64,000 nt of DNA, from contig NZ_CP098805.1 of the NCBI RefSeq assembly GCF_023821985.2, positions 1,054,001-1,118,000 on the forward strand, in the 5' to 3' direction. The notes beneath the pieces were generated by a model. That model was not told the origin of the DNA, ran no database searches, and was given only the letters and a program-made list of their open reading frames with translations. Below, piece after piece: positions 13,133 through 49,612 of this stretch (positions within the stretch are counted from its first letter, which is position 1; each line of letters begins with the position of its first letter). The DNA comes from Dyadobacter chenhuakuii (GTDB taxonomy: Bacteria > Bacteroidota > Bacteroidia > Cytophagales > Spirosomataceae). The position numbers and the translations under genes are program-made.

Positions 13133-14824
13133 AGAACATTCTGGCTCAAAAGAAAAAGAAAAAGCCCCCCAGGGGCAAAAAATATCCTGGCTCATAAGAT
13201 CCCCAGGTTGAAACCTGGGGCCAAGATATGATTCAGCCCTGTGGGCTTTTGTTGCCAGTAGTAAATAAAAAAGCCCATCGGGCTAATCAATAAAATGGCC
13301 CCGGGTTTCAACCCGGGGATCAAAAGAAAAAGAAAAAGAAAAGCCCCCCAGGGGCAAAAAAATATCCTGGCTCATAAGATCCCCAGGTTGAAACCTGGGG
13401 CCATGATATGATTCAGCCCTATGGGCTTTTGTTGCCAGTAGTAAATAAAAAAGCCCATCAGGCTAATAAATAAAATGGCCCCGGGTTTTAACCCGGGGAT
13501 CATAAGATAAAGAAAAAGCCCCATCAGGGGCATAAATATCCTAGCCCAGGTTTCAACCTGGCGGGAAATAAAAAAATCAAAATGAGCGAAAAAGGAAGTA
13601 TAGGGGTGATCATAGGGAACAGGGATTTTTTCCCGGACAGGCTGGTCGCAGAAGCGCGTGTGGAGATTATTGACCTGCTGGCGAAATTGAAGATCAACAG
13701 CATTATGCTCGATACCGAGGATACCAAACTCGGCGGCGTCGAAACGTCCCCAGGTTGAAACCTGGGGCCATGATATGATTCAGCCCTATGGGCTTTGGTT
13801 GCCAGTTATAGATAAAAAAGCCCATCGGGCTGATCAATAAAATGGCCCCGGGTTTTAACCCGGGGATCAAGAGAAAAAGAAAAAGAAAAGCCCAACAGGC
13901 AAAAAAATATCCTGGCTCATAAGATCCCCAGGTTGAAACCTGGGGCCATGATATGATTCAGCCCTGTGGGCTTTTGTTGCCAGTAGTAAATAAAAAAGCC
14001 CATCGGGCTAATCAATAAAATGGCCCCGGGTTTTAACCCGGGGATCAAAAGAAAAAGAAAAAGAAAAGCCCAACAGGGACAAAAAAAATCCTGGCTCATA
14101 AGATCCCCAGGTTGAAACCTGGGGCCATGATATGATTCAGCCCTATGGGCTTTGGTTGCCAGTAGTAAGTAAAAAGCCCATCGGGCTGATCAATAAAATG
14201 GCCCCGGGTTTCAACCCGGGGATCAAAAGAAAAAGAAAAGCCCAACACGGGCAAAAAAATATCCTGGCTCATAAGATCCCCAGGTTGAAACCTGGGGCCA
14301 TGATATGATTCAGCCCTATGGGCTTTGGTTGCCAGTAGTAAGTAAAAAGCCCATCGGGCTGATCATTAAAATGGCTCCGGGTTTTAACCCGGGGATCAAA
14401 AGAAAAAGAAAAAAAAGTCCCCCAGGGACAAAAAACATCCTGGCTCATAAGATCCCCAGGTTGAGACCTGGGGCCAAGATATGATTCAGCCCTACGGGCT
14501 TTGGTTGCCAGTAGTAAATAAAAAAGCCCATCGGGCTGATCAACAAAATGGCCCCGGGTTTCAACCCGGGGATTATAAGAAAAAGAAAAGACCCCCCAGG
14601 GGCAAAAAAAATCCTGGCTCATAAGATCCCCAGGTTAAAACCTGGGGCCATGATATGATTCAGCCCTACGGGCTTTGGTTGCCAGTAGTAAATAAAAAAG
14701 CCAATCGGGCTAATAAATAAAATGGCCCCGGGTTTCAACCCGGGGATCAAAAGAAAAAGCCCCATCAGGGGCATAAAATATCCTAGCCCCAGGTTTCAAC
14801 CTGGCGGGAAATAAAAAAATCAAA
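13133..14824. repeat. Hairpin-repeat array A: about eight ~175-180 bp units
   Basis: This gap is filled by tandem units starting with CTGGCTCATAAGAT at 13187, 13367, 13912, 14091, 14264, 14440 and 14614, plus a unit at 13748 lacking that start. Each unit has, in order: H1 CCCCAGGT-TGAA-ACCTGGGG (13201-13220 in unit 1), H2 AGCCC-TGT-GGGCT (13235-13247), H3 AGCCC-ATC-GGGCT (13272-13284), H4 CCCCGGGT-TTCA-ACCCGGGG (13299-13318), a purine-rich AAAAGAAAAAG spacer and H5 GCCCC-CCA-GGGGC (13343-13355). Substitutions fall mostly in loops. H5 at 14417-14429 reads GTCCC-CCA-GGGAC, a compensatory double change. A fragment of the downstream gene lies inside the array. It resembles REP/BIME-type repeats. 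Short open frames here are repeat artefacts. Confidence 0.9.
13582..13758 (+). pseudogene. Truncated duplicate of the 5' end of the isomerase-like gene
   Basis: Bases 13582-13747 match 14825-14990, the first 166 bp of the isomerase-like gene, with eight substitutions, of which six are synonymous. The match breaks after GTCGAAACGT and runs directly into hairpin H1 of a repeat unit, where the frame ends after Ser-Pro-Gly at a TGA (58 codons). The ~75 bp upstream, including GCCCCATCAGGGGC and TTTCAACCTGGCGGG, is also duplicated before the intact gene. The product would be only the first ~55 residues of a 470-residue enzyme and cannot be functional. The excess of synonymous differences suggests the fragment came from a copy that evolved for some time under coding constraint. 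Confidence 0.85.
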
Positions 14825-16237
14825 ATGAGCGAAAAAGAAAGTATCGGAGTGATCATAGGGAACAGGGATTTTTTTCCGGACAGGCTGGTCGCCGAGGCGC
14901 GTGTGGAAATTATTGACCTGCTGGCGAAATTGAAGGTCAACAGCATTATGCTCGATACCGAGGATACCAAACTCGGCGGCGTCGAAACGTTTCAGGACGC
15001 ACAGAAATGTGCAGCATTGTTCCGGCGACACCGGGATGAAATCATTGGCGTACTCGTCGTTTTGCCCAATTTCGGTGACGAAAGAGGAATTGCAGAAACA
15101 TTAAAACTGGCCGAACTCAATGTGCCGGTGCTGGTACAGGGCTATCCCGACGACCTGGATAAGCTCGATGTGGCCCGGCGACGGGACTCCTGGTGCGGAA
15201 AGATTTCTGCTTGTAACAATTTATACCAATTTGGCATCAAATATACGCTGACCACTAAGCATGTAGTGCATCCGTCCGATCCCACTTTTGTGAAGGACCT
15301 ATTGGATTTTACGGCCGTTTGCCGTGTTACCAAAGGTTTGCGCAATGTTCGTATCGGCGCTATCGGCGCACGTCCCGGAGGATTCAACACCGTCCGTTAC
15401 AGCGAGAAAATATTGCAAAGAAACGGTATTTCCGTTGTGACGGTCGACCTCTCGGAGATTTTGGGCAATGCCAACAAGCTCACCGCCCAGGATGCAAGCG
15501 TGCAGCAGCGTTTGCAGCGAATCCGCGATTATGCTTCCACGGGACTGACGCCCAATGAAGCGTTGATCCAGATGGCAAAGCTCGATGTGGTGCTGTCGGA
15601 TTTTATGCAGGAAAATTCACTGGACGCAACGGCCATCCAGTGCTGGACTTCCGTGCAAAAGAATTATGGCTGCAACGTGTGTACGAGCATGAGCATAATG
15701 AGCGAAAATATGCTCCCGAGCGGCTGTGAAGTGGATGTAACCGGAACATTAAGCATGTACGCTTTGCAACTTGCATCCGGCTCGCCGAGCGCACTTGTGG
15801 ATTGGAATAACAATTACGCAGATGACGATAACAAATGTGTCCTTTTCCACTGCGGAAACTGGGCGAAATCCTTCCTGCCCGACATTGAAATCAGCACCGC
15901 GCCGATTTTAGGAACGTCTGTGGGAGAGGAAAATACATATGGCGCATTGTCGGGGCGCACGCCTGCTATGCCGCTTACATTTGGCCGCATCAGCACGGAC
16001 GATCCGCGCGGCGTGATGAAGGCATACATTGGTGAGGGCAGGCTAACGGATGATACATTAAAAACATTTGGTAACCGGGCCGTGGCCGAAATCCCAAACC
16101 TGCAAAATTTAATGCAATACATCTGTCGCAATGGTTTTGAACACCATGTGGTAATGAACGCATCCAAAACAGCGGGCATTCTCAAAGAAGCATTAGGCAA
16201 TTATATGGGCTGGGAAGTGCAGCTTTTTGATAATTAG
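14825..16237 (+). CDS. L-fucose/L-arabinose isomerase family protein
   Basis: 470 residues, cytoplasmic. The FucI/AraA fold is suggested by an N-terminal Rossmann-like half (VLVVLPNFGDERGIAETLKL, VPVLVQGYPDD) and a C-terminal half holding the probable metal site: SGCEVDVTGTLSMYAL (acidic ligands) and VLFHCGNWAKSF (histidine). Members interconvert aldoses and ketoses using a divalent metal. It is shorter than E. coli FucI (~590) and typical of the uncharacterised L-fucose isomerase-like group. Split transketolase genes follow at 15 bp and the operon carries a sugar ABC transporter, so it probably makes a ketose for the transketolase. The leader and first 166 bp also exist as a broken copy 1.24 kb upstream. 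Confidence 0.75.
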   Translation: MSEKESIGVIIGNRDFFPDRLVAEARVEIIDLLAKLKVNSIMLDTEDTKLGGVETFQDAQKCAALFRRHRDEIIGVLVVLPNFGDERGIAETLKLAELNVPVLVQGYPDDLDKLDVARRRDSWCGKISACNNLYQFGIKYTLTTKHVVHPSDPTFVKDLLDFTAVCRVTKGLRNVRIGAIGARPGGFNTVRYSEKILQRNGISVVTVDLSEILGNANKLTAQDASVQQRLQRIRDYASTGLTPNEALIQMAKLDVVLSDFMQENSLDATAIQCWTSVQKNYGCNVCTSMSIMSENMLPSGCEVDVTGTLSMYALQLASGSPSALVDWNNNYADDDNKCVLFHCGNWAKSFLPDIEISTAPILGTSVGEENTYGALSGRTPAMPLTFGRISTDDPRGVMKAYIGEGRLTDDTLKTFGNRAVAEIPNLQNLMQYICRNGFEHHVVMNASKTAGILKEALGNYMGWEVQLFDN

Positions 16238-16252
16238 TAGTCAAGAAAAACC

Positions 16253-17086
16253 ATGTCGGAAAAGGAGTTAGCGCAGAAATCGGTGGAGTACCGGAAGAAA
16301 ATCCTCAAATACATTTACCAGGCCAAAGCCGGGCACACCGGCGGCAGCCTGTCGTGTATTGATATCCTGAATGTGCTTTACAACCACACGATGCAGGTGG
16401 ACGCAACCGATTTCACTTCTCCCGACCGCGACCGGTACATTCAAAGCAAAGGGCACACGGTGGAAGCATTATATGTAGTGCTGGCTTCCCGGGGATTTTT
16501 TCCGGAAACCGATCTGGAAACGCTTTGTCAATATCAATCACATTACATCGGACATCCGACACGTAAAGTGCATGGTGTTGAACAGAATACGGGCGCATTG
16601 GGCCACGGTCTTTCGCTGAGTGTAGGCACTGCCATTGCGGGCAAACTGGATAAAAAAGATTACCGCGTTTTCACGGTTTTGGGAGACGGCGAACTGCCCG
16701 AAGGTTCAAACTGGGAGGCAGCATTGTCGGCGGCGCATTATAAGCTCGATAACCTGTGCGCGATTTTGGATAAAAATACATTGCAAATCTCGGGGCCGAC
16801 GGCCGATGTCCTGAATACCGACCCGGTCGATAAAAAATTCGAGGCTTTTGGCTGGGAAGTGCGGCATGTGGACGGGCATGATATCAAACAATTGACAGAG
16901 GCATTTGATGCACTGCCTTTTGCGAAGGGCAAGCCCAGCCTCATTATTGCACATACGGTAAAGGGTAAGGGCATCAGTTTCATGGAAAATCAGCTCAAAT
17001 GGCACCATGGCGTTCCAGACCCCAAGCAGTACGCAGATGCCGTCCAGGAACTCGATTTGTATGGAGAAACGCTGGCTTCGGCTTAA
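16253..17086 (+). CDS. Transketolase, N-terminal (ThDP pyrophosphate-binding) subunit
   Basis: 277 residues covering only the PP-binding half of transketolase. The GDG motif that binds the diphosphate-magnesium of thiamine diphosphate lies at about residues 144-146, followed by EGSNWEAALSAAHYKLDN. GHTGGSLSCIDIL and YIGHPTRKVHGVEQNTGALGHGLS are the usual substrate and cofactor loops. The complementary pyrimidine-binding half is encoded 21 bp downstream, so the two form a split transketolase. It transfers a two-carbon ketol unit between sugars; here the donor may be the product of the upstream isomerase, which is inference. Confidence 0.9.
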   Translation: MSEKELAQKSVEYRKKILKYIYQAKAGHTGGSLSCIDILNVLYNHTMQVDATDFTSPDRDRYIQSKGHTVEALYVVLASRGFFPETDLETLCQYQSHYIGHPTRKVHGVEQNTGALGHGLSLSVGTAIAGKLDKKDYRVFTVLGDGELPEGSNWEAALSAAHYKLDNLCAILDKNTLQISGPTADVLNTDPVDKKFEAFGWEVRHVDGHDIKQLTEAFDALPFAKGKPSLIIAHTVKGKGISFMENQLKWHHGVPDPKQYADAVQELDLYGETLASA

Positions 17087-17107
17087 AATAAGAGATTGAT
17101 AATCAAA

Positions 17108-18082
17108 ATGGATAGCACGGTGGATGCGACTATTGAAAACATTGCGGTTGCGCAACAGACCAACCTGGAAGTTTTTTCGGGCGTTTTGCAGCTGCTGGCA
17201 GAGACGGACAAGGACATTATCGTCGTAACCAGCGACTCGCGGGGGTCGGGAAAGCTTGTTCCTTTTGGCCAGAAATTTCCGGAGCAGATCATTGAAGTTG
17301 GCATTGCGGAGCAAAATCTTGTAGGAGTTGCGGCCGGCATTGCCTCGACTGGAAAAAAGGTTTTTGCGGTTTCGCCAGCTTGTTTTCTCACAGCCCGCGC
17401 TTTGGAACAGATCAAAAATGACGTTGCTTATTCCAATAATCCCGTAACGCTCGTGGGCATCAGTGCCGGTGTGAGTTACGGTGCATTAGGCTCTACACAC
17501 CACAGTTTGCACGATTTTGCGGTGTTAAGGACCATTCATAACCTCATTATCGTGGCCCCGGCCGATAATTTTGAAGCGGAACAGGCCGTGAAGCTCGCAG
17601 CAGTAACCGACCTGCCGGTTTACATTCGTTTCGGCAAAAAATCAATGCCTTTACTGTCTGCCGAAAAATCATTTGAATTTGGAAAAGGCCGCATAATCCG
17701 GGAGGGAAGCGACCTGACCATCGTTGCCACGGGTGAAACTGTAGAACATGCCTGCGCCGCAGCACAAAACCTCGAACAGGAATTTAACATTACCACGACC
17801 ATTGTGAGTATGCACACGATCAAGCCTTTGGATTACAATCTGTTAGCTGAGATCGCTGCTTCGGGAAAACCCATCATTACCGTGGAAGAACACAGTGTGT
17901 ATGGCGGCTTAGGGGAGGCTTGCGCTTCATTTTTATTCCAGAATAACTTTCGTAACCCTTTCAAAATCATGGGTATACCCGATGAATATACGGTTACAGG
18001 CTCCCAGCAGGAGATCTTCAATCATTATGGGATTTCGAAGGAGGGTATTACGCAGGCTGCACTTGCCCTTTTGGGGGAATAA
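17108..18082 (+). CDS. Transketolase, C-terminal (pyrimidine-binding) subunit
   Basis: 324 residues from the ATG at 17108; a TTG at 17096 is in frame but leaves a poorer start. The domain contains the catalytic cofactor-activating glutamate (Glu68 in VGIAEQN), the STHHSLHDFAVLR loop, and a C-terminal domain (TIVATGETVEHACAAA, VEEHSVYGGLGEA). With the preceding gene it completes a transketolase of two chains, an arrangement common in archaea and in bacterial pathways devoted to unusual sugars. The next gene begins 84 bp downstream, the largest gap inside this operon. Confidence 0.9.
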   Translation: MDSTVDATIENIAVAQQTNLEVFSGVLQLLAETDKDIIVVTSDSRGSGKLVPFGQKFPEQIIEVGIAEQNLVGVAAGIASTGKKVFAVSPACFLTARALEQIKNDVAYSNNPVTLVGISAGVSYGALGSTHHSLHDFAVLRTIHNLIIVAPADNFEAEQAVKLAAVTDLPVYIRFGKKSMPLLSAEKSFEFGKGRIIREGSDLTIVATGETVEHACAAAQNLEQEFNITTTIVSMHTIKPLDYNLLAEIAASGKPIITVEEHSVYGGLGEACASFLFQNNFRNPFKIMGIPDEYTVTGSQQEIFNHYGISKEGITQAALALLGE

Positions 18083-18166
18083 ATAAAATCAGGTAGGGGT
18101 AAAGTTTTCCGTGATAAGTCAGGAAATAAGCCGCTTCTTTCAAATATGCTAAATCGCGAATTTTTT

Positions 18167-19576
18167 ATGAAGTTGTCAAGATACATTGCTATATCTGCCT
18201 TAATGCTTGGATTTTCATTCGCCAAAGCCCAGCCCGCTGCTCAAAAGCACAGGGTTTTGATTTTGACAGACATTGAAAATGAACCTGATGACACACAATC
18301 CATGGTGCGTTTTCTTACTTATTCCAATCACTGGGATGTAGAGGGTTTGATCGCGACGACTTCCATACATCAGCAAAAAAGGATCGCTCCTGAAAAAATC
18401 AAACAGTTGATAAACGCTTATGGCAAAGTCAGGAACAACCTGTTGCTGCACGAGAAAGGTTTTCCCGAAACAGCATATCTCCTCAGCGTTACCAAAAGCA
18501 GTTTTCCCGAATTTGGCCTGAATGCGGTGGGCAAAGGAAAAGACTCTGAGGGCTCGGAATGGATCATTAAAGTGGTTGATAAAAAAGATGACCGGCCGGT
18601 GTGGATTCCCGTTTGGGGCGGGGCCAATTGTCTTGCACAGGCGCTTTGGAAAGTAAAAATGACCCGCTCGCCGGAAGATCTTAAAAAGTTTGTCTCCAAA
18701 ATCCGGATGTATACCATTTCGGACCAGGACGATACCGGGCCATGGATCCGTAAGAATTTTCCTGATCTATTCTACGTCGGCAGTCCAGGTTACCATGCCG
18801 CTGGCGCTTACCATTCTGCAACCTGGTCGGGCATTAGCGGTGATAAGTTTCACGGCCGGTTCGCTGGCGCCAATTTTACCATTGTAGACAATCCCTGGCT
18901 CGACGAAAACGTGCGGAACCACGGACCGCTGGGCGCAGAATATCCGTTCACAAAGTTCCTGATGGAAGGCGACACGCCCTCATTTTTAGGACTGATCAAC
19001 AACGGTTTAAATGATCCCGAACATCCTGAATACGGAGGATGGGGCGGCCGGTATGAACTCTACACGCCGCATACGCTGAAATATTTTTATGAGCCCGAAA
19101 CCCGCCCCATCTACACCGATGCCATGGACGAAGTGAAGGGCGCTGACAGCTTGTTTCACACCAGCAATAAGGCAACATTATGGAGATGGCGGGAAGCCTT
19201 TCAGCACGATTTTGCAGCGCGTATGGATTGGACGATCAAACCTTACAAAGAAGCAAATCATCCACCCAAAGCAGCATTGAAGCATGCAAACGCCATTAAA
19301 GCCAAAACCGGCGAGAAAGTAACATTAAGCGCCGAGGGTTCCGAGGACCCGGATGGAAACGAGCTTACTTACCAATGGATCTACTATCCGGAGCCCGGCT
19401 CCTATAACCAGAAAGACCCGCTGGGAATCAACAATTGGCAGGCTAAAAACACATTCTTTACGGCTCCTAAGGTTGAAAAACCGGAGACGATCCACATTAT
19501 CCTGGCTGTAACGGACAAAGGCGTTCCGGCGCTGACGCGTTATCAGCGTGTGATCGTAACAGTTTATCCTGAGTAA
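18167..19576 (+). CDS. Secreted DUF1593 (Sde182-type nucleoside-hydrolase-like) protein
   Basis: 469 residues from the ATG at 18167 (an ATG at 18146 precedes the signal peptide). The signal peptide ends near SFAKAQ. Residues ~25-340 resemble the nucleoside-hydrolase-like domain of DUF1593: [19 protein letters not shown] supplies the aspartate-rich calcium-site motif, and [16 protein letters not shown] is typical. Residues ~385-469 form a cadherin/PKD-like beta domain ([17 protein letters not shown]-type pattern). Characterised relatives are rare, but the fold implies N- or O-glycoside hydrolysis outside the cytoplasm. Being inside a sugar uptake operon, it may release the sugar taken up by the ABC transporter encoded next. 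Confidence 0.75.
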
Positions 19577-19588
19577 CCGGATCGGTTT

Positions 19589-20536: not shown

Positions 20537-20538
20537 CA

Positions 20539-21168: not shown

Positions 21169-21185
21169 ACCAATCCAATCTTCCT

Positions 21186-23677: not shown

Positions 23678-23735
23678 ATTCTAAATCCTGCCGCAGAAGT
23701 TCTCAACATTAGTCCATCTACTAATTTATCAGATT

Positions 23736-24731
23736 ATGAGTCCGAAAACTGCCCAGGAACTGGCGTTGCCCGTAGGCGTAACGCTCGACAGGTTTATCAT
23801 GTTAAGTCAAACTGCTTTTCCGTACGCAACGGGTGAGCTGTCCCAATTGCTCCGGGATATTGCGCTGGCCGGAAAGATCATTAACCGTGAAATCAACCGC
23901 GCAGGCCTCGTGGACATTGCCGGCGGAAACGGAACGGACAATGTACAGGGCGAAAATCAGCAAAAACTCGACATTATCGCCAATATCCGTTTCATCAGGG
24001 CATTGAAAAATGGGGGAGAAGTGTGCGCGATTCTTTCGGAAGAGGACGAGGATATCATTCACACGGGTAACGATCATGGCAAATACGTGGTTGCCATGGA
24101 CCCGCTGGACGGCTCTTCCAACATTGATGTCAATGTTTCAATAGGCACCATTTTCTCGATTTACAGACGCATTTCACCCATTGATGGGCCAGCCACGCGG
24201 GAGGACTTTTTGCAAGGCGGCCGGAAGCAGGTCGCAGCCGGATACATTTTATATGGTTCGTCCACCATGCTCGTTTATTCCACCGGCGACGGCGTGAACG
24301 GCTTCACTTATGACCATTCATTGGGAGAATTTATTTTATCTCACAAAAACATCCGCTCCCCGGAGAATGGCACCATTTACTCCGTGAATGATGGTTATAT
24401 CAACGATTACCCGGCTTTCGTACAGGATTATCTGACCAAATGCAAGGCACAATCCTGCACAGCCAGATACATCGGCTCACTGGTAGCGGATTTCCATCGC
24501 AACCTGCTCCGGGGCGGCGTTTACCTGTATCCATCCACCAAAAAAACGCCTGAGGGCAAGCTCAGGCTGTTATATGAATGTTATCCGCTCGCGTTTATCG
24601 CCGAAAAGTCCGGAGGAAAAGCTATCGATGGTTTCGGCCCGATACTCGACATCGTGCCTACGTCATTTCACCAGCGTTCACCTATTTACCTGGGATCATC
24701 GAGCATGGTAGACGAAGTCATGAAATTCTAA
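23736..24731 (+). CDS. fbp: Class 1 fructose-1,6-bisphosphatase
   Basis: 331 residues with the class 1 FBPase pattern: ILSEEDEDI, the metal-binding [23 protein letters not shown] segment (about residues 120-142), a [14 protein letters not shown] loop and the C-terminal [21 protein letters not shown]. It dephosphorylates fructose-1,6-bisphosphate, or sedoheptulose-1,7-bisphosphate in some enzymes, and is needed for gluconeogenesis. Its place at the end of an isomerase-transketolase-transporter run suggests use when the imported sugar yields triose or pentose phosphates that must be turned back to hexose phosphate. A strong hairpin follows directly. Confidence 0.93.
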
Positions 24732-24750
24732 AAAGCTTGATCATGAGCTA

Positions 24751-25323
24751 TCAGACTAGCGAAGCGATCAGCGCTTCGCTAGTTTTAAGCTCGATCCTGC
24801 CTTTCGTCGGGATCATATTGCCCCATATAAAATTATAGTGTGTAATGATCTGCTCCGCAGACAAATGCGGCTTTTCGCCCGTCGTATGGGCATCTTCAAC
24901 GACGGTAATATCATAATCTTTCGACAAGGCCACCTGCACCGTCGATTCTACACAAAAATCGGTTGCACTGCCGGTAATGACCAGTTCGCCGACATTCAGC
25001 TCGTTCAGTTTCGTTTCCAGTTCGGTGTTGTAAAAGGCATCGTGCGCTTCTTTTGCCAAGATCAGATCCTGTTTTTCTACGTTCAGATCGGCTAGTAATT
25101 GCCAATCGTGTGTGTTGGGAATGTACTCGTCCAGCTTGGTGCCGTCGTGCTGAATAAAAATCACCGGCAGGCCTTTTTTACGAAATGCGGCGGCAAGTGC
25201 ATTGATACGCGCCACAACGCCTTCGGGATCGTAACGTCTGGAATCAGCGGTAAATGAACCATTCTGCATGTCAATGATTAACAGGCCTTTCCGCGGTTCC
25301 GAAGTTTCTGTTTTTCTATCCAC
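24751..25323 (-). CDS. Isochorismatase-like cysteine hydrolase
   Basis: 190 residues. The isochorismatase-fold triad is visible: Asp18 in LLIIDMQNG, lysine in LAKEAHDAF, and the nucleophilic cysteine in ATDFCVEST. Members include nicotinamidases, N-carbamoyl hydrolases and true isochorismatases. The residues seen do not separate these, and no siderophore genes are nearby. The final ~12 residues are encoded by the stem of a terminator-like hairpin shared with fbp. It is cytoplasmic and monocistronic as far as can be seen. Confidence 0.85.
   Translation of the reverse strand: MDRKTETSEPRKGLLIIDMQNGSFTADSRRYDPEGVVARINALAAAFRKKGLPVIFIQHDGTKLDEYIPNTHDWQLLADLNVEKQDLILAKEAHDAFYNTELETKLNELNVGELVITGSATDFCVESTVQVALSKDYDITVVEDAHTTGEKPHLSAEQIITHYNFIWGNMIPTKGRIELKTSEALIASLV
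24755..24783. terminator. Bidirectional terminator-like hairpin after fbp
   Basis: A perfect 12-bp stem (ACTAGCGAAGCG / CGCTTCGCTAGT) with a 5-base loop ATCAG, followed on the plus strand by TTT. It starts 23 bp after the fbp stop and lies inside the last codons of the convergent isochorismatase-like gene, so the hairpin serves as coding sequence on the minus strand. Confidence 0.7.
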
Positions 25324-25397
25324 AAAATTTTTAGTTAGTTATATTTTAAATGTATATTTCTACAAAAATCACAAATTAGTTTTACGCCTTCGGGATA

Positions 25398-28300
25398 ATG
25401 AAGTTAAACTTTTACTATTGTATCTATATTTTAATAATGCAATTTATTGCATTACCTGCCTTCCCGCAAAGCAAACCCTTACACTTCCGACACATCTCCG
25501 CTGAAAACGGCCTTGCCAATAATAACGTCAATTGTGTTTTACAGGACAAAACAGGTTTTATCTGGATTGGTACGAACGGAGGATTGCATCGCTATGATGG
25601 CCATGAATTCAGAATTTACAAAAATAATGAGCAGGATAAAAACAGCATCAGCAATGATTTCGTAACGGCGCTGGCCGAAGACAAATCAGGCAATATCTGG
25701 ATCGCGACGAGCGGCGGAGGTGTGAATGTTTTCGATAAGAATAAAGGTGTTTTTGCAAAATATACAGCCGTTGACCACGATCCCAAAACCATTTCCGGGG
25801 CTTACGTTAATAAGATTGTTTTTGATAAAAATGACAAATTATGGATCGCGACCACGGGCGGTCTGGATGTGTTTGATCCGGTCAGCAGAAGCATTGTAAA
25901 ACATTATAAATCCGACACGACGAATGTCCGCAGCCTGGCTGATAACAATGTGAATACGGTTTATTGTGATGCGCAAAACAACATTTGGGCCGGAACCGGG
26001 AACGGGCTTAGCTTGCTGGATAGAAAGTCGGGCTTGTTCCGGAGGTTTCTTTCTGACGAAAATGTGAACAGCTTGTCGGGCAATGATATCCGTTACGTTT
26101 TTCAGGATAGCAAAGCCAGGGTTTGGGTGGGCACGTATGGTGCGGGCCTTAATCTTTATCAGCCTGGTGAGGGCACATTCCGGCGTTTTAGAAATAATCC
26201 GCTGGATCCCGCCTCTCTTTCAAACAACAACATTACCAGCATTAATGAAAACCAGAGTGAGATCTGGATCGGCACCGAAAACGGCGGGCTGAATATTTTG
26301 AATACACAAAACTGGACATTCAGATCTTATGTGCATGATGAGGTGGACAGGAGCAGTGTTGGCGGAAATTCGGTGGATTGCATTTACAAAGACCGGCAGA
26401 ATAACTTGTGGCTGGGGATTTACAGTGCAGGGCTGAGCATTTATAAAAGTGACAACAGATTTGCACATTACCAGCACAATTCACTCAAAAATAGCCTTTC
26501 CAATGACTTCGTTCTCTGTTTTTACGAGGATAGCGATCGCAGTATATGGGTGGGCACGGATGGCGGCGGCTTGAATTTGATGAACCGTAACACGCATCAG
26601 TTCAGTGCATTTACACATCAGAATTCGGACATTTCCGGTGATTATGTGCTGGCGATCGTTCCGGATGAGGCAGGTAAAATGTGGATAGGGACCTGGGGGA
26701 GCGGTCTGAATATTTTTGATCCGGCGACCAAACGCTTTACCGTATTGAAACATCAGGAAAACACTGTTAACTCTTTATATTCCAATAATGTATATGCCAT
26801 AGCCAGGACGCATGACAACACGATGTGGCTGAGCACCTATGGCGAGGGACTGGACGCTTATGACCCGCAAACCAAAGTTTTCAGGCACTATCTGAGCGAA
26901 CCGGATAATCCCAAAACGCTTTCCGACAACACCGTCAACTGCTTTCTGACCGATCGCAGCGGCAACCTCTGGCTGGGGACAGATGAGGGGCAGTTGAACC
27001 GCTATGATAAAGCGTCCGATACATTTACACGTTTTAAAGTAAGTGACAGCGAGCGCGTTTTCAACAGCGCGATCAATTGCATGGTGGAGGACAAAAACGG
27101 AATTTTATGGCTGGCCACCTTACGTGGGCTCATCCGCTTCGATCCACGGACAGGCAGGACAAAAAAATATACGACGACGAACGGGCTGGTAAACAATGTG
27201 ACTCAGGCGCTGATTGAGGATGATTTGGGGATGTTATGGATCAGTACGGTAAACGGGCTTTCGAGGTTTGACCCGAAATCTGAGCGATTTGAGAATTACA
27301 CTTTGGAATACGGGCTTCAAGCAAGGGAATTTAAGCAAAAATCTGCTTATAAGGATGCGGACGGCACATTGTATTTTGGTGGAGTAAATGGTTTTAATCA
27401 ATTTAACCCCAGGCAAATCAGTCCCCGGAGTGGTTCTTACCCTATCATTGTGACCAATTTTAAAGTTTTCAACCGGGATGAAGCAGCTGCCAAGCCGGAT
27501 GGTTATGCGCTTGTTTTACCAAAAGAAATTTCCGAGGCCAGAACGATCACACTGGCATATGACCAGTCATTTATTTCGCTGGATTATGCCGCCCTTGATT
27601 TTACTTCTGCCCAAAAAAGTTACGCTTATTGTCTGGAAGGATTTGATCAGGGCTGGAATTATGTAGGTGACGCTAATACAGCCATTTACACCAATTTGCC
27701 TCCCGGAAATTACACGTTCAAGCTCAAAGCGCAGAACATTTCAGGGGCCTGGATATCAGCAAAGAACAACCTGACCATCATCGTCACACCGCCGTTCTGG
27801 GCGACCTGGTGGTTCAGGATATTGGCATTAATTGCCGTTGCAGGCACTATTTACGCGCTTTATCGTTACCGCGTCAACACCATCATCAGGCAGAAAGCAA
27901 CCTTGGAAAACCTGGTGGAAGAGCGCACTGCGATGGTACAGAAACAGGCGGAGGAATTGCATGCGCAGTCGGATCATTTGCAAGCTTTGAATGAGGAATT
28001 GCAATCGCAGTCGGAGGAGTTGCGTGTGCAGACGGAAGAATTGTACGAGCAGCATGAGCAGGCGCAGTTTGCACGCGAAGAGGCCGAACGTGCGAACCAG
28101 GCCAAGAGCATTTTCCTGGCCACGATGAGCCACGAGATCCGGACGCCTATGAATGGTGTCATCGGCATGACCGCCTTGCTTGCTGAAACGGAACTGACTG
28201 AGGAACAACAGGATTATACCAAAACCATTGCGGCCTGCGGTGAAACATTGGTGAATGTGATCAATGACATTCTGGATTTTTCAAAAATAGAATCTGGTAA

Positions 28301-38533: not shown

Positions 38534-38538
38534 AAAGT

Positions 38539-42060: not shown

Positions 42061-42099
42061 AGGTGATAGATAGTGGTTGAATTTTGAGCGTAGTGCCTT

Positions 42100-42163
42100 G
42101 GGGCCTCAACCCCTAAAGGGGCTTATAGTTACCAAAATAGTAAAAAAAGCCTCCTTAAGGAGG
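42100..42163 (-). terminator. Terminator hairpin after the nitrate transporter gene, then leader hairpins
   Basis: Reading on the minus strand, the 14-bp palindrome CCTCCTTAAGGAGG (42150-42163) lies 17 bp after the transporter stop and is followed by CTTTTTTT, a classical intrinsic terminator. Further along, at 42121-42100, the sequence CCCCTTTAGGGGTTGAGGCCCC can form two hairpins that compete for the same central GGGG, within the leader of the nitrate reductase gene. The terminator call is firm; a regulatory role of the leader hairpins is speculative. Confidence 0.65.
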
Positions 42164-42180
42164 TTGGGGGCATACTGCCA

Positions 42181-43488: not shown

Positions 43489-43522
43489 AGTTAATAGGAG
43501 TTTAATAGTTGTTTTGGAATGC

Positions 43523-44881
43523 TTATTTCAAAAATTCAGGCTTGATATTGATCATCAGATAAGCCCAGTTTGCCATTTTCTGCGGATCTTTTACGGCTTT
43601 CACCTGCGCTAAACTGCTGGTGGGCAGGAATGTGCAGTAACCTCCCTGGAAGCTGATGGTTTTGGTGAGATTATAAGTGGCAATGATGTCGAGCTCTTCC
43701 CCGAAATTGGCCGAAAGCTTTTCGTCTTTTGCATTGCGAATGTTGGCAGCGCTCGAAAATTGGTGCAAATCAATGGCAATAGACAGCTTTTCAGAAGCCT
43801 TGATCACACTGTTTATGTAAAAATCGGCCAGTCCGCCTTTGCCGAAACCGTTGGCCGCATAGAAGTAATCCATTTGCCCCCAAAACTTGTGCGGCGTGCC
43901 GTATAGTGGATCAAATGTGCTGTTTTTGCGTGAACCGTTCGTAGTCCCGGAAGTGTAATCGAAGCCCGGACCAATGGAAAAGATGGAACTCGCAGCGTAT
44001 GAACCGCGCACGGAATACATGTACGCATTCAGCGATTTGCAATCCTTGTCTTTTCCGGCCTGGTAATACGCACTGGCCGTCAGATTCCAGGCTCTGCCGA
44101 GTTTTGTTTGCAGGTAAGGACCGAATGTTACGCGTTTGTTTGTGCCGTTCTTGACCGTTCTTACGCCTGCCGTATCCAATGCATATTTCTGAAAATCATC
44201 TTTCAGGATAAGGAAAGAGACATTTCCTTGTTTCAATTTTCTACCCAAATAAGCGAACTGCATGGATTTGTACATCGTGCCGATTCCATTCGTTCCGGCC
44301 GCATAACCATTGGGAACACCATCATACAAAGTGCCTGTACGAAGCTCACGGTTTTGGTTATACGCAACGCCGATGTGCGCGGTGAATCCATTGAATCCGT
44401 ATTTCAATAATGCTGCATCGTGGCGGCGAGCCTGTTGTAGCCAATCCAGATTTCCTAGCAGTCGGCTGTCGTCATATAGCAATTCCTGCCGTCCGATCTT
44501 TAACGCAAATTCTTTCCCCAGCCTAGTCTGATTCGTATCCAGCAAACTGATTTCGCCCCAGGCTTCGTGCAACATTAATCCATTCAGCGCAGGATTGGTG
44601 ATGCGGTTGTTGGTAGAAGCATCCTGTCCCCAAACACGCACATCCTGGACGGCAACGAAAAATTGCTTTCTGTAACCTTTGTAGCCTGCATTCAGCCGGG
44701 TTCTTTGCGAAGTAAAAAACGCGGGCTTATCCGTTTTGGACAGGGGTGAGCCTTGTCCGTGCGGCAGTTCCGAGCGCGTCCGCAACTGGCCCAAAAGGCT
44801 GAATTGCGCGTGGGCACGCGGCAAACAGAGCAGGCAAAAACCTGCTGCAAAGAGCATTAGGAAGTAGAAATTTGTTTTCAT
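43523..44881 (-). CDS. Outer-membrane porin of the alginate-export type
   Basis: 452 residues with a signal peptide ending near RAHAQ (about residue 26). The rest is beta-barrel-like with alternating aromatic strands; TRLNAGYKGYRKQFFVAVQDVRVWGQD, LKIGRQELLYDDSRLLGNLDW and SYFKP-type ends match the alginate export (AlgE-like) barrel family common in Bacteroidota nitrate loci. In this setting, between cobA and the nitrate transporter, it probably lets nitrate or nitrite pass the outer membrane. Specificity is inferred from context only. Confidence 0.78.
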   Translation of the reverse strand: MKTNFYFLMLFAAGFCLLCLPRAHAQFSLLGQLRTRSELPHGQGSPLSKTDKPAFFTSQRTRLNAGYKGYRKQFFVAVQDVRVWGQDASTNNRITNPALNGLMLHEAWGEISLLDTNQTRLGKEFALKIGRQELLYDDSRLLGNLDWLQQARRHDAALLKYGFNGFTAHIGVAYNQNRELRTGTLYDGVPNGYAAGTNGIGTMYKSMQFAYLGRKLKQGNVSFLILKDDFQKYALDTAGVRTVKNGTNKRVTFGPYLQTKLGRAWNLTASAYYQAGKDKDCKSLNAYMYSVRGSYAASSIFSIGPGFDYTSGTTNGSRKNSTFDPLYGTPHKFWGQMDYFYAANGFGKGGLADFYINSVIKASEKLSIAIDLHQFSSAANIRNAKDEKLSANFGEELDIIATYNLTKTISFQGGYCTFLPTSSLAQVKAVKDPQKMANWAYLMINIKPEFLK

Positions 44882-44913
44882 GGAGTGAAAGGTTAGTTGC
44901 GTAAGCCGTTATT

Positions 44914-45672
44914 TCAGGAAACCAAATGCATGCTTTGCAGATATTCCATCGCGTACGACGGATGCAAAGCCACCACGTCGCCCAGGATCATGATGGCGGG
45001 CGTGCCGATGTTATTTTCTTTCACAAGGCGCGGGATTTCCCAAACCTGTCCCATCACGCTCTTTTCGTCGGAGCGCGTGCCGTTCTGGATCACCGCCATC
45101 GGCAAATGTCCTCGCCCGAAGTGTTTGTATAGTGCACATATTTCATTCACCTTGCTCAGTCCCATCAGCACGATCACCGTCGCTTTGGATTGGGCTGCAA
45201 GGCGCAGATCCTCTGATAGTTCACCATTTTGTGTAGTGCCTGTGATTACCCAAAAGCTCTCGCTCACACCACGCCGCGTCACCGGAATTTCCATCGAGGC
45301 CGGGACCGCGATACAGCTTGAAACGCCGGGGACCACTTCGCAGGCCACGCCATGTTCCCGCGCATATTCCATTTCTTCATGTCCGCGACCGAATACAAAT
45401 GAGTCGCCGCCTTTCAACCGAACGACATGTCCGCGTTTGCGGGCGAGGCGCACGATCAGGCCGTTGATTTCTTCCTGGGAAAAAGAGGGGTTACCTACTT
45501 TTTTTCCCACATACATTTTCAATGCGTGAGCAGGAGCGAAGTCGAGGATTTCCACATTGGCCAGCTCATCATAAAGAACCACATCTGCTGCTTTAATCGC
45601 CCTGATCCCTTTCAATGTGATCAGTTCTCCGTTGCCGGGGCCGGCGCCTACAAGTGTTAGTCTTGCTTCCAT
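44914..45672 (-). CDS. cobA: Uroporphyrinogen-III C-methyltransferase
   Basis: 252 residues of the tetrapyrrole methylase fold: the GAGPGNGELITLKG SAM loop, VVLYDELAN, RLKGGDSFVFGRGHEE and VVPGVSSCIAVPASMEIPVTRRG are diagnostic. It adds two methyl groups to uroporphyrinogen III to make precorrin-2, the precursor of siroheme. NirB needs siroheme, and its gene is divergent from this one, so the placement matches demand. No CysG-type dehydrogenase/chelatase domain is present; a separate gene must supply it elsewhere. Confidence 0.94.
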   Translation of the reverse strand: MEARLTLVGAGPGNGELITLKGIRAIKAADVVLYDELANVEILDFAPAHALKMYVGKKVGNPSFSQEEINGLIVRLARKRGHVVRLKGGDSFVFGRGHEEMEYAREHGVACEVVPGVSSCIAVPASMEIPVTRRGVSESFWVITGTTQNGELSEDLRLAAQSKATVIVLMGLSKVNEICALYKHFGRGHLPMAVIQNGTRSDEKSVMGQVWEIPRLVKENNIGTPAIMILGDVVALHPSYAMEYLQSMHLVS

Positions 45673-45949
45673 CTCTTATATATATAATAGAGTGAATATT
45701 AGAAATGTACTATATATAGTATTTTGTAACTATACCGTTTGTTGGTTCAAAATTAGGAGCAATATTTTACAAAACAATGTATTTGCCAATAATTATGTTT
45801 CTCTTTTGATATAAATGCGAATATAAAATTAGGAAATGCATAAAATGCGATTTATGTTTGTTCTGTTAAATATGAAGGAAACAGGCTTAAATATTGTAAT
45901 AATACAACATAATAATAATGTTTTCACAAATTAATAGTTACTATTTACT
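45673..45949. promoter_or_regulatory. AT-rich divergent control region of cobA and nirB units
   Basis: This 277-bp gap separates the two divergent nitrate units and should hold both promoters. It is very AT rich. TACTATATATAGTA (45708-45721) is a perfect 14-bp palindrome near the cobA start. AATAGT-T-ACTATT (45933-45945) is a second inverted repeat just before nirB, and both share the half-site ACTAT. They are candidate binding sites for a regulator such as the NarL-type protein encoded downstream, but similar palindromes can arise by chance in such DNA. Confidence 0.4.
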
Positions 45950-48466
45950 ATGAATGCAATAACAAACACCCATATTGTTGTGATAGGCAATGGTATGGTA
46001 GGCTACAAATTCTGTGAAAAGTTGCTCGCCAGAAAAAAAAGTGATCAGCAGATTACGCTCACTGTTTTTGGTGAAGAACCGCGTGTGGCGTACGATCGCG
46101 TGCATTTGAGTGAATATTTCGCTGGTAAAACAGCTGACGATCTCACCCTGGCAAGCGCAGATTGGTATGCGGACAACGGGATCCGGCTCTTCCTTTCCGA
46201 TCCGGTGGTGGACATTGACCGAGACGAAAAGCTGGTAAGATCACACCATGGACATATAGTGCACTATGACTATCTGATCATGGCCACCGGCTCCGGCGCA
46301 TTCGTTCCTTCTATTCCGGGTGTGGAGAAAGACGGCGTGTTTGTGTATCGGACCATTGAAGATCTGGAACTGATCCAGTCGTATGCCCGCAAAGCAAGAA
46401 AGGGTGCCGTGCTTGGCGGCGGATTGCTGGGACTGGAAGCGGCGAAGGCGTTGCTGGATTTAGGATTAGAGGAGGCGCATGTGGTGGAATTTGCATCGCG
46501 GTTGATGCCCCGGCAGATCGACGACGCCGGTTCGCGCATTTTGCAAAGCCAGCTTGAATCATTGGGATTACAGATTCATCTAGCCAAAAGCACGCAGGAA
46601 ATTGTGGGCGGTGATTGCATAGAAGGGATGCAGTTCAATGATAACACTTTGCTCGATGTGGATATGCTGGTCATTTCTGCGGGCATCCGGCCGCGTGATG
46701 AGCTGGCAAAAATCGCAGGATTGGAAACGCATCCAAGAGGTGGCATCGTGGTGAACAACCAGTTGCAAACTTCTGACCCGAATATTTTTGCCATAGGCGA
46801 ATGTGCATTGGCGCACCATATGATTTACGGGCTCATTGCACCGGGTTATGAAATGGCCGAAGTGGTGGCAACATTGCTTCTGGGCGGTGAAAAGGAGTTT
46901 TTGCCCTATGATATGTCTACCAAATTGAAGCTGATCGGGACGGACGTGGCGAGTTTTGGTGACCCGTTTATCGAAGAGCCGGCTTGCAAAACCATTCGCT
47001 ATGAGAACAAGGCTAAGGGCATTTACAAGCGCATTAATGTGAGTCCGGACGGTAAAACCTTGCTTGGCGGCATCCTTGTGGGCGATGTCGAACAATATAA
47101 TATGCTTTTGCAAACTTGTAAAAGCAAGACCATTCTGCCACCAGATTCCGAAGATCTGATCCTGGGCTCGCGCGGGGGCGAAGAGGCGGGCGCAGGCGTG
47201 ATGGGCTTCCCTGACGACGCACTTATGTGCTCTTGCGAGGCGGTTACCAAAGGCATGATCTGCCATGAAGTGAGCGAAAAAGGCAACCATACGATGGACG
47301 CTTTGAAAAAATCGTGCAAAGCCGGAACGGGCTGCGGCGGCTGCGTGCCGATGGTGAAAGACATCATTTCGGGCGTGATGAAGCAGAACGGCATTTACGT
47401 CCGTAATGTGGTGTGCGAGCATTTTGATTATTCGCGGCAGGAATTGCTGGATCTGGTCAAAATGAATGGTGCCAAAACGTACGGTGCGGTGTTGGATGAA
47501 TTTGGAAAAGGGGATGGGTGCGAGGTTTGCAAGCCGCTTGTGGCCTCTCTTTTAGCAAGCCTTTGGAATGAAAATATTTTGCAAAAAGACCGCGCGACGA
47601 TCCAGGATTCGAATGACCGTTACCTGGCCAACATTCAAAAAGGAGGAACTTACTCGGTCGTGCCACGGATTCCGGGCGGGGAAATCACGCCAGAAAAACT
47701 GATCATTATCGGCCAGGTGGCGCAGCAATATAATTTATATACAAAAATTACGGGCGGGCAGCGGATTGATTTGTTCGGTGCGCATTTGAATGATCTGCCG
47801 GATATCTGGGAGCAGCTCATTGATGCCGGATTTGAGAGCGGTCATGCTTACGGCAAATCGTTGCGAACGGTGAAAAGTTGCGTAGGATCGACGTGGTGCC
47901 GGTTTGGGGTGCAGGATTCGGTAACATTTGCGATTGAGGTGGAGGATCGATACAAAGGTTTGCGTTCGCCGCATAAGCTAAAATCTGCGGTTTCGGGTTG
48001 TGTGCGGGAATGTGCGGAGGCGCAGAGCAAGGATTTTGGCATCATCGCTACAGAGAAAGGCTGGAATTTATACGTCTGCGGCAACGGAGGTTCCAAGCCG
48101 CAGCACGCGCAACTGCTCGCGACGGATGTGGATAAGGAAACGTGTTTGAAGTTAATCGACCGGTTCTTAATGTTTTACATCAAAACGGCTGATCCACTCA
48201 CCCGCACTGCTACTTGGCTGAATAAGATGGAAGGAGGCATGTCTTACCTCAAAGCGGTGGTGGTGGACGACGTTCTAGGCATCGCGGCGGAACTGGAATC
48301 GGATATGCAAAAGCTCATCGACGTGTATCAATGCGAGTGGAAAGAAGTGGTTCAAAATCCAGAGCTGAGAAAACGCTTCTCGCACTTTGTGAATGCACCT
48401 GTGAAAGATCCTTCGATTGCTTTTGAAACCATGAGAGACCAGAAACGGGCTAAGGAATGGGCTTAG
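45950..48466 (+). CDS. nirB: NAD(P)H nitrite reductase large subunit NirB
   Basis: 838 residues in the standard NirB order: FAD/NAD oxidoreductase (VVIGNGMVGYKF, VLGGGLLGLEAAKAL, residues ~1-390), BFD [2Fe-2S] domains (CSCEAVTKG, CKAGTGCGGC and DGCEVCKPL, ~415-540), then the ferredoxin-like and siroheme/[4Fe-4S] halves. The cluster ligands are Cys644 and Cys650 (SCVGSTWC) and Cys684 and Cys688 (GCVRECAE). It reduces nitrite to ammonium in the cytoplasm. Length is normal. The small subunit gene is displaced by 1.17 kb because of a repeat array. Confidence 0.95.
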   Translation: MNAITNTHIVVIGNGMVGYKFCEKLLARKKSDQQITLTVFGEEPRVAYDRVHLSEYFAGKTADDLTLASADWYADNGIRLFLSDPVVDIDRDEKLVRSHHGHIVHYDYLIMATGSGAFVPSIPGVEKDGVFVYRTIEDLELIQSYARKARKGAVLGGGLLGLEAAKALLDLGLEEAHVVEFASRLMPRQIDDAGSRILQSQLESLGLQIHLAKSTQEIVGGDCIEGMQFNDNTLLDVDMLVISAGIRPRDELAKIAGLETHPRGGIVVNNQLQTSDPNIFAIGECALAHHMIYGLIAPGYEMAEVVATLLLGGEKEFLPYDMSTKLKLIGTDVASFGDPFIEEPACKTIRYENKAKGIYKRINVSPDGKTLLGGILVGDVEQYNMLLQTCKSKTILPPDSEDLILGSRGGEEAGAGVMGFPDDALMCSCEAVTKGMICHEVSEKGNHTMDALKKSCKAGTGCGGCVPMVKDIISGVMKQNGIYVRNVVCEHFDYSRQELLDLVKMNGAKTYGAVLDEFGKGDGCEVCKPLVASLLASLWNENILQKDRATIQDSNDRYLANIQKGGTYSVVPRIPGGEITPEKLIIIGQVAQQYNLYTKITGGQRIDLFGAHLNDLPDIWEQLIDAGFESGHAYGKSLRTVKSCVGSTWCRFGVQDSVTFAIEVEDRYKGLRSPHKLKSAVSGCVRECAEAQSKDFGIIATEKGWNLYVCGNGGSKPQHAQLLATDVDKETCLKLIDRFLMFYIKTADPLTRTATWLNKMEGGMSYLKAVVVDDVLGIAAELESDMQKLIDVYQCEWKEVVQNPELRKRFSHFVNAPVKDPSIAFETMRDQKRAKEWA

Positions 48467-49612
48467 TTGGCTGGGATTAGATTATACTTGCTTTTTTTCC
48501 AGGGATTGAAATCCCTGGCGAGGGTATGGATCGCCGGTGACCCGGCTTGGCATCTTGCTAGTGAGCCACATCGCGGCGGCCAATTATTTGCCCCGGGCTT
48601 CAGCCCGGGGATCCAAAGAGAAAGAGAATAGAGAGAATATAAAATGAACAAAGCTTTGGCTAGCTCTGGCTTTTTTTTCCAGAGATTAAAATCCCTGGCG
48701 AGGGTATGGATCGCCGGTGACCCGGCTTGGCATCTTGCTAGTGAGCCACATCGCGGCGGCCAATTATTTGCCCCGGGCTTCAGCCCGGGATTTAAAGAGA
48801 AAGAGAATAGAGAGAATGAAAAATAGAATAAAGCTTTGGCTAATTCTAGCTTTCTTTTCCAGGGATTGAAATCCCTGGCGAGGGTATGGATCGCCGGTGA
48901 CCCGGCTTGGCATCTGGCTAGTGAGCCGCATCGCGGCGGCCAATTATTTGCCCCGGGCTTCAGCCCGGGGATCCAAAGAGAAAGAGAATAGAGAGATAGA
49001 AAATGAAGAGAATATAAAATGAAACAAAGCTTTGGCTAATTCTGGCTTTTTTCCCAGGGATTGAAATCCCTGGCCAGGATATGGATCGCCGGTGACCCGG
49101 CTTGGCATCTGGCTAGTGAGCCGCATCGCGGCGGCCAATTCCTCGCCCCGGGCTTCAGCCCGGGGATCCAAAGGGAAAGAGAATAGAGAGAATGAAAAAT
49201 GAAACAAGGCTTTGGCTAATTCCGGCTTTCTTTTCCAGGGATTGAAATCCCTGGCCAGGATATGGATCGCCGGTGACCCGGCTCGGCATCCTGCTAGTGA
49301 GCCGCATCGCGGCGTCCAATCCCTAGCCCCGGGCTTCAGCCCGGGGATCCAAAGAGAAAGAGAAAGAGAAAGAAAATAAAGAGAATATAAAATGAAACAA
49401 AGCTTTGGCTAATTCTGGCTTTTTTCCCAGGGATTAAAATCCCTGGCGAGGGTATGGATCGCCGGTGACCCGGCTTGGCATCTGGCTAGTGAGCCGCATC
49501 GCGGCGGCCAATCCCCAGCCCCGGGCTGAAGCCCGGGGCTGATAAAAGAGAAATGCCAAGCCGGGTCACCGGCAGTACATATTTAACCCCGGGCTTCAGC
49601 CCGGGGATCACA
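48467..49612. repeat. Hairpin-repeat array B: six ~180-195 bp units plus an inverted partial unit
   Basis: Between nirB and nirD, units begin with CCAGGGAT-TGAA-ATCCCTGG at 48499, 48679 (degenerate), 48859, 49054, 49235 and 49427. Each continues with H2 GCCGG-TGAC-CCGGC (48533-48546 in unit 1), H3 GCCGC-ATC-GCGGC (48565-48577, with one A mismatch in unit 1), and H4 CCCCGGGC-TTCA-GCCCGGGG (48591-48610), then a purine-rich AAAGAGAAAGAG spacer. At 49519-49573 the order is reversed: CCCCGGGCTGAAGCCCGGGG and then GCCAAGCCGGGTCACCGGC, which is the reverse complement of the H2 core. A last H4 lies at 49587-49606. Short open frames inside are artefacts of the repeat. Confidence 0.9.

Follow-up and report, generated by a model that had tools for sequence, protein, structure and literature searches.

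Two tandem hairpin arrays of Dyadobacter chenhuakuii as probable BIME-like clusters associated with a clade of IS200-class Y1 transposases

A 64,000-nucleotide stretch of the Dyadobacter chenhuakuii genome (contig NZ_CP098805.1, positions 1,054,001 to 1,118,000; here called the window) contains two tandem repeat arrays, A (13133 to 14824) and B (48467 to 49612), whose units carry hairpins in the same order and with similar loops and spacing. The locus raises the question of what holds this folding geometry in place. An earlier note, made from the sequence alone, had proposed selection on a folded RNA or single-stranded DNA and had named, as the nearest known class, repetitive extragenic palindromic (REP) sequences and bacterial interspersed mosaic elements (BIMEs) moved by REP-associated tyrosine transposases (RAYTs). 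We consider it probable, at roughly three in four, that A and B are tandem BIME-like clusters and that one clade of Y1 HUH transposases (TnpA; subclass 1.2 motif, IS200 class) is the partner of their half unit and serves them in trans. This reading is supported directly by the unit architecture, covariation, gene linkage, agreement with the enzyme tree, a presence/absence association among genomes, and copy-number change at orthologous sites.

Architecture of the repeat unit

The array coordinates, the periods of 173 to 195 bp, the four hairpins per unit (H1 to H4), and the gaps between them (14, 24, and 14 nucleotides [nt] in A; 14, 18, and 13 nt in B) were given correctly in the earlier note. 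When each unit was read against its own reverse complement, it proved to be an inverted pair, H1-14-H2 followed by an inverted H3-14-H4. The equal 14-nt gaps and the mirrored loops TGAA and TTCA arise because the unit is inverted, H1 corresponding to H4 and H2 to H3; the agreement between hairpins is in part a consequence of the inversion.

The half unit, of about 50 nt, comprises a hairpin, usually of 8 bp (6 to 9), with a TGAA or TAAA loop, an AT-rich linker, and a 5-bp hairpin with the loop TAC, TAT, GAT, or TGAC, among others. The distance from the loop to the second hairpin is mostly 22 nt, in a search that permitted 21 to 23 nt and TRAA loops only, and this fixed distance means that a shorter stem has a longer linker. 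Among 121 half units found within these limits, the first loop was TAAA in 65 and TGAA in 56, and second loops included TAC (41), TGAC (17), and TAT (12).

The TGAA and TTCA loops ascribed to both arrays do occur in both, together with variants. In A, the H1 loop is TGAA in six of eight units, TGAG in one, and TAAA in one, and the H4 loop is TTCA in four and TTTA in four; in B, the H1 loop is TGAA in four of six units and TAAA in two. H2 loops differ between the arrays (TAT, TGT, or TAC in A and TGAC in B). The description of the stems as almost completely different was too strong, since the H4 stem, CCCCGGGT in A and CCCCGGGC in B, differs at one pair of eight. As in REP sequences and BIMEs, these short palindromic repeats form inverted pairs and are both clustered and dispersed in the genome.

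The tetramer GT[AG]G at the 5' hairpin foot was found neither in A (ATGG or TTGG) nor in B (TTTG, CTCG, CTGG, CTAG, or CCAG). Among relatives this foot varies: at 25 of 39 loci, one or more half units have [CT]TAC or CTAN by the arm, and CTAC, which is GTAG on the other strand, occurs at 14 of 39. The idea that the two-hairpin type carries a strict GTAG foot was rejected.

Covariation of the stems

As suggested in the earlier note, a covariance model (R1) was built and relatives were searched; A and B supplied three of the 47 R1 seeds. Alignment A3 consists of 47 half units picked by hand for variety out of 85, seeds having been found by requiring Watson-Crick pairing, in a search that omitted loci L037, L043, L045, and L083 and three loci of this genome (L031 to L033). 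All 13 pairs change on both sides, and 97.1% of cells are paired, compared with 27.5 to 46.3% when the columns are slid by 1 to 3 positions. Double-sided change at all 13 pairs was also found among 101 distinct R1 matches of this genome, in an alignment fitted to the model.

We further used a control set in which sites were chosen by loop and linker alone, with no pairing demanded (83 unique sites from 21 of 43 loci, with 11 distinct apical stems). The eight H1 positions were Watson-Crick paired at a frequency of 0.85 in register and 0.12 to 0.35 when shifted. The second hairpin paired at 0.72 with a loop of 3 nt and at 0.13 to 0.37 in other registers, except for one register that reached 0.59 and shares four of the five second-hairpin pairs; the full 5-bp second hairpin was present at 52 of the 83 sites. 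Selection on a folded form with exchanged pairs, as first proposed, is thus supported both by the double-sided change and by pairing at sites that were not selected for it.

The strict half-unit pattern had no hits in 11.6 Mb of mononucleotide-shuffled sequence and 136 hits in 0.58 Mb of transposase loci, and 100 kb of Escherichia coli K-12, used as a negative control, gave a single R1 match (E = 0.62).

At the control sites, 464 of 498 H1 cells were Watson-Crick pairs, 18 were A-C, 7 were G-T, and 9 were other combinations. G-U counts in the seed and model alignments are unusable because the seeds required Watson-Crick pairs, and the scarcity of G-U was accordingly dropped as an argument for DNA. 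The pairing data, including the unbiased recount, are compatible with a DNA or an RNA fold alike; folded DNA is favored over RNA because the repeats are tied to an enzyme, not because of the pairing.

Association of the repeats with a transposase clade

Copies of the family were first found by searching the genome with pieces of A and B. R1 detected at least 109 half units in this genome at an E value of ≤0.1, with 150 of 1,746 candidates scored, and 115 matches at ≤0.001 in the stretches sampled from it. Forty distinct H1 stems, listed by script, fall under 20 labels, one of which is an AT-rich chance match, so that about 19 sites remain; three sites (L210, L216, and L217) are without a full second hairpin.

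The genome carries three Y1_Tnp genes, P0001, P0002, and P0003. None lies within the window, as the earlier note had stated, and the search that it recommended in the rest of the genome led to one that stands beside its own array of units. This gene, P0001 (C1:491990-492448), follows an array of six units with the stem CCGGGAT and then further single half units, and it starts about 200 nt past the last R1 match of that array.

We then compared 30 loci from the family search (this gene included) and the best 80 of 579 found by name in the genome collection. Four genes were counted twice (L066/L233, L043/L070, L044/L083, and L054/L101) and were removed for locus counts, not for the tree. Strict half units were present at 36 of 43 distinct loci with a TnpA at least 56% identical to P0001, at 2 of 27 with 50 to 56% identity, and at none of 41 below 50% (39 of 46, 2 of 28, and 0 of 41 with duplicates kept). 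A cognate Y1 transposase gene thus stands beside the repeats, as in REP/BIME systems, and at 33 of the 43 nearer loci strict half units lie no more than 300 nt from it. Beside nearer genes, hairpins with TRAA/TTYA loops and very different stems occur in Dyadobacter, Algoriphagus, Flavobacterium, Arcicella, Spirosoma, Chryseobacterium, Mucilaginibacter, and metagenome-assembled genomes.

R1 matches were found in 42 of the 61 loci L037 to L097, many of which supplied R1 seeds, and were distributed very unevenly (11 of 11 in L037 to L047, 0 of 18 in L048 to L065, and 31 of 32 in L066 to L097). The 48 more distant loci L098 to L145 gave four weak matches (19.4 to 23.9 bits). In a TnpA tree of 117 rows, the half-unit type occupies one side of one branch (48 rows), with a Shimodaira-Hasegawa-like approximate likelihood ratio test support of 95; this tree comes from a quick search, 56 of its 110 inner branches have support below 80, three end branches are long, and labels were assigned by hand from R1 matches and the strict pattern. 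Alignment A2 excludes L044, which has an internal stop, and is without L051 and L054 to L065.

The association was also seen at the genome level, where element counts per genome are lower bounds. Among 40 genomes of the genus, elements were present in all 14 with a TnpA match of at least 200 bits and in 6 of the 26 others (P = 3.3 × 10^-6); with the three known seed genomes left aside, all 11 with a near TnpA carry elements (P = 1.4 × 10^-5), and one of the named seed loci (L093, for example) may come from a further genome of the genus. Among 150 genomes of the family, the corresponding counts were 12 of 12 and 19 of 138 (P = 8 × 10^-10), and 4 of 4 after removal of eight seed genomes (P = 5 × 10^-4).

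Some further features were observed around the transposase genes and units. P0002 is followed by arrays of ATCCC-GGA-GGGAT hairpins (L028:4600-5200) with GGTAG at a fixed distance and an orientation that switches part way. In the 9 kb inspected around P0003 (L029:4481-4954), there was no repeated hairpin. Many genomes of the genus contain matches to P0001 with about 34% identity, and the P0003 kind is perhaps one conserved, repeat-free copy. A long TATCTC microsatellite abuts the first hairpin of a unit at L030:2880-2970, and a GA tract follows the unit at L035.

Class of the enzyme

P0001 is an IS200-type transposase by the Pfam model Y1_Tnp (103.4 bits) and by the NCBIfam IS200 model, with which it scores 76.9 bits (cutoff, 55); all three proteins exceed that cutoff. 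With the RAYT model NF047646 (cutoff, 80 bits), P0001 scored 27.1 bits and P0002 scored 21.8, and P0003 was not listed. The earlier placement near REP/BIME repeats and a Y1 transposase was therefore in the right neighborhood, but the enzyme is of the IS200 class and not a RAYT, and the unit is an inverted dimer. The motif Y---Q--HH was found at 111 of 115 loci and the HUH motif at 112 of 115, both of them in all three proteins of this genome; judged by motif, the enzymes appear to match TnpA_Y1 subclass 1.2 (Quentin et al. 2018, PMC6006769). The predicted structure (mean predicted local distance difference test score, 85.1) is nearest to the ISDra2 and IS608 TnpA proteins, which also come first among solved structures when sequences are compared; E. 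coli TnpAREP (4er8) ranks 30th among the structures near the predicted fold.

In the sections of the 2018 survey that concern these classes, REP sequences accompany class 2 and 3 Y1 enzymes, class 1 is the insertion-sequence class, and subclass 1.2 has "no" under REP and is generally without typical terminal IS200 structures; the methods refer to TnpAREP-encoding genomes, and the extent of the repeat search beside subclass 1.2 genes is uncertain (PMC6006769). Our literature search, mostly without subscription papers and preprints, returned no paper whose title or abstract deals with subclass 1.2 repeats. The repeat family described here accompanies a Y1 branch recorded without REP in those sections of the survey (PMC6006769).

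Change at orthologous sites

The nirB-nirD spacer contains six units in this genome, two in G125 (L186), and one in G158 (L187). The paired stems of these units differ (CCCCGGGT and CCAGGGAT), and CCCCAGGT occurs in G156, where the spacer is cut by a contig end. The spacers of G150, G151, and G154 have TTTA/TTCA hairpins, and the other 10 of the 17 nirB-nirD spacers (about 330 nt each) have no such unit. Unrelated short repeats lie in this spacer (L185 to L201) in several members of the genus, for example, at L193, which may make it a hot spot for repeats.

Elsewhere, a stretch of 0.33 kb in this genome is the counterpart of a 2-kb array in G156, the flanks being 75 to 76% identical. One unit of G051 is a remnant in our genome (G000), in which part of H2 remains, and this points to deletion or loss in G000. 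At the site of array A, G158 has a half unit and G157 has no unit; the spacers are too diverged there for the ends to be placed. From the copy-number differences, a gene fragment within A, and the G051 remnant, we infer that the arrays grow, shrink, and decay.

Proposed mechanism and alternative explanations

The simplest account would be that TnpA recognizes and binds the folded single strand through its loops and spacing, so that the letters of the stem may drift as long as they pair. TnpA might nick and rejoin single-stranded half units during replication, thereby seeding and maintaining them, in which case the units would be mobile, and tandem copies might expand and contract through slippage or recombination. 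A and B would then be passengers, and the gene at C1:491990-492448 would serve them in trans, whatever secondary effect they may have on their neighbors. PMC8266576 describes cutting experiments with group 3 REPs. In Stenotrophomonas maltophilia, a single position of the loop was crucial, and a stem mismatch affected cutting or came close to abolishing it; in Marinomonas, exchange of an entire stem for its complement had a moderate influence. These experiments fit stems that are free but paired.

Several observations weigh against the transposase as keeper of the repeats. Elements occur without a near TnpA in 6 of 26 genus genomes (up to at least 40 matches, in G160) and in 19 of 138 family genomes (up to at least 29, in G065), for which gene loss or another mover is needed, and two near-TnpA genomes (G166 and G015) have only a count of at least one match. 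L095, a nearer locus, has no R1 match; the strict pattern is missing at 7 of the 46 near loci, each of which has an R1 match; and half units near the gene have mixed orientations. A and B are without the GTAR that many relatives have at the hairpin foot. No clean empty site was seen, the sole presence/absence case examined (G051 and G000) leaving a remnant. In addition, the 200-bit and 56% limits were chosen post hoc, the genus and family sets overlap, and related genomes are not independent.

The arrays might instead be RNA elements, hairpins in operon mRNAs (DeoR-isomerase and nirB-nirD) that stabilize, attenuate, or separate the expression of neighbors and are retained for that role, with the transposase as a minor partner. 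Both arrays do lie between codirectional genes, and the nirB-nirD spacer has units or TTTA/TTCA hairpins in all seven genomes named above (G000, G125, G158, G156, G150, G151, and G154). However, the presence of the repeats follows the TnpA clade and not the neighboring genes, the remaining 10 of 17 spacers are without such a unit, Rfam gave no match at the gathering score, and wobble in the H1 cells (7 G-T and 18 A-C beside 464 Watson-Crick pairs) does not favor an RNA of this strand. We therefore regard an RNA function as unlikely.

It is equally improbable that the half units are the left and right ends of an ordinary IS200/IS605 element and that the units are derivatives of it resembling miniature inverted-repeat transposable elements. 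This explanation would suit an enzyme that passes the NCBI IS200 model, as well as the prevailing orientation of the nearest half unit within 300 nt, inverted to the gene upstream at 16 of 25 loci and forward downstream at 18 of 24. The ends of IS200/IS605 elements, however, are not known to be inverted pairs. Moreover, the near TnpA (at least 200 bits) is found once in 13 of the 14 genus genomes that have it and twice, with different scores, in the other, unlike a multiplying insertion sequence with many near-identical gene copies, and R1 matches outnumber near TnpA genes by up to at least 135 to 2.

Least probable is hairpin-prone DNA that expands by slippage, is homogenized by gene conversion, and merely shares its neighborhood with a transposase, which would account for the variable tandem copy number at orthologous sites and for the local duplication seen in the 166-bp gene fragment of A but leaves unexplained the one-clade distribution, the genome-level association, and the recurrence of identical loops, linker, and 22-nt spacing next to the gene across many genera.

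A related repeat in the wider subclass

At 66 loci with a TnpA of less than 55% identity (that of P0002 included), sequence up to 600 nt from the gene was inspected, and a shorter hairpin followed by GTAG at an offset of 14 from the stem was found at 39. GTAG was the commonest of all tetramers at this offset and occurred at 0 to 5 loci at each other offset from 8 to 23; TAGA, in the adjacent register at 46 loci, is part of the same motif. The typical form of this distant type is AATCCC GTTA GGGATT-AGATGTCG-GTAG-AAAA. In many species, the nearer clade's half unit takes the form hairpin-GACCCATATT-GTAR-hairpin when its opposite strand is read, so that the two forms look related. One two-hairpin half unit for all of subclass 1.2 was considered and rejected, since distant loci have a single hairpin and GTAG. 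One of the two repeat labels applies to 88 of the 117 tree rows and neither form to 29. A contig labeled Methylococcaceae (L122) carries a TnpA together with Bacteroidota-type repeats and may be misbinned.

We lean slightly toward a wider interpretation, in which an IS200-class subclass 1.2 TnpA has turned to tending repeats across Bacteroidota, a third kind of REP system. The repeat would be defined by loop and spacing and not by the stem sequence. A common core of hairpin, fixed AT-rich gap, and GTAG-like tag would serve most of the subclass, one clade would have added a second hairpin at the tag, and the repeat code would follow the enzyme tree. If so, a repeat family bound to subclass 1.2 would imply that repeat keeping arose among Y1 transposases on more than one occasion. 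The many genera with one enzyme clade, free stems, and fixed loops would offer a natural series for reading which parts of a DNA hairpin such enzymes see, and it would be known where the growth of arrays within gene pairs like nirB-nirD comes from.

Layout of arrays A and B

Both arrays sit between codirectional genes. The window has 33 R1 matches with an E value of ≤0.001, 18 in A, 14 in B, and one elsewhere (25407 to 25455), which lies in an AT-rich stretch and was judged a chance hit and not a family member. The features are as follows.

13133 to 14824: array A, between a gene for a DeoR-type regulator (12365 to 13132) and a gene with an L-fucose isomerase C-terminal domain (14825 to 16237)
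13200 to 13319, + strand: A unit 1, half unit H1-H2 at 13200 to 13249 (+; R1 score, 55.5 bits) and inverted half unit H3-H4 at 13270 to 13319 (-; 51.2 bits)
13380 to 13499, + strand: A unit 2, half units at 13380 to 13429 (+) and 13450 to 13499 (-), both model matches
13516 to 13564, - strand: lone H3-H4-type half unit past A unit 2 (28.8 bits)
13582 to 13747, + strand: gene fragment inside A, 166 bp, 95% identical to the start of the downstream gene
13747 to 14746, + strand: A units 3 to 8, H1 hairpins at 13748, 13926, 14105, 14278, 14454, and 14628; inverted half units ending at 13866, 14044, 14222, 14395, 14572, and 14746, with purine-rich spacers
14757 to 14807, - strand: lone H3-H4-type half unit at the right end of A (41.2 bits)
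45950 to 48466: gene left of array B, with nitrite/sulfite reductase domains, NirB-like
48467 to 49612: array B, inside the spacer 48467 to 49631 from the reductase-domain gene to a 115-amino-acid open reading frame
48498 to 49539, + strand: B units 1 to 6, H1 hairpins at 48499, 48679, 48859, 49054, 49235, and 49427; inverted half units at 48563 to 48611, 48743 to 48791, 48923 to 48971, 49118 to 49166, 49299 to 49347, and, weakly, 49491 to 49539
49516 to 49607: partial last unit of B, TGAA hairpin at 49516 to 49541 and inverted half unit at 49558 to 49607
49632 to 49979: open reading frame of 115 amino acids right of array B, presumably NirD-like

The gene fragment interrupts array A and directly abuts the foot of the next H1 hairpin; it is probably the trace of a tandem duplication. 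In G125 (L226; G125:C15:454500-457900), an A-type array adjoins sequence matching the window at 24455 to 24588 and 25264 to 26380. No match to the DeoR gene was found within that stretch, and the isomerase-like gene is unmatched in G125; L226 is a rearrangement ending at the array.

Comparison with known systems

REP/BIME (REPIN) repeats with TnpAREP/RAYT enzymes of classes 2 and 3, as characterized in the relevant parts of PMC6006769 and PMC8266576, resemble the present system in their short palindromes, inverted dimers, tandem clusters, and dispersed copies, in the tie of each repeat type to one transposase clade, and in a low-copy gene beside its own repeats. They differ in that the enzyme here is of class 1 (IS200-like), two hairpins stand at a fixed spacing, stems vary widely within one genome while loops are kept, and A and B are without the GT[AG]G foot. 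TnpA_Y1 subclass 1.2 shares the Y---Q--HH motif, the length of about 150 amino acids, the occurrence in Bacteroidetes, and the low copy number, whereas repeats were found here beside most of the genes compared, unlike in the account that the corresponding sections of the survey give of it (PMC6006769).

The IS200/IS605 transposases of IS608 and ISDra2 are the closest in structure, and the NCBIfam IS200 score is above the cutoff; unlike those elements, the genus set shows no multiplying insertion sequence, and many short repeats are found instead of one two-ended element. Finally, GTAG- and CGTC-tagged REPs, in the descriptions of these two groups in PMC3733652, are palindromes mostly in head-to-head dimers, and the GTAG tag recurs in our distant loci. 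The CGTC group, which is reported there from Bacteroidetes as well, has stems of 8 to 9 bp and loops of 4 to 5 nt of few types, as here. In contrast to these groups as described there, our distant loci carry GTAG 3' of the hairpin, at an offset of 14, and not at the palindrome end, and the nearer type has a second hairpin.

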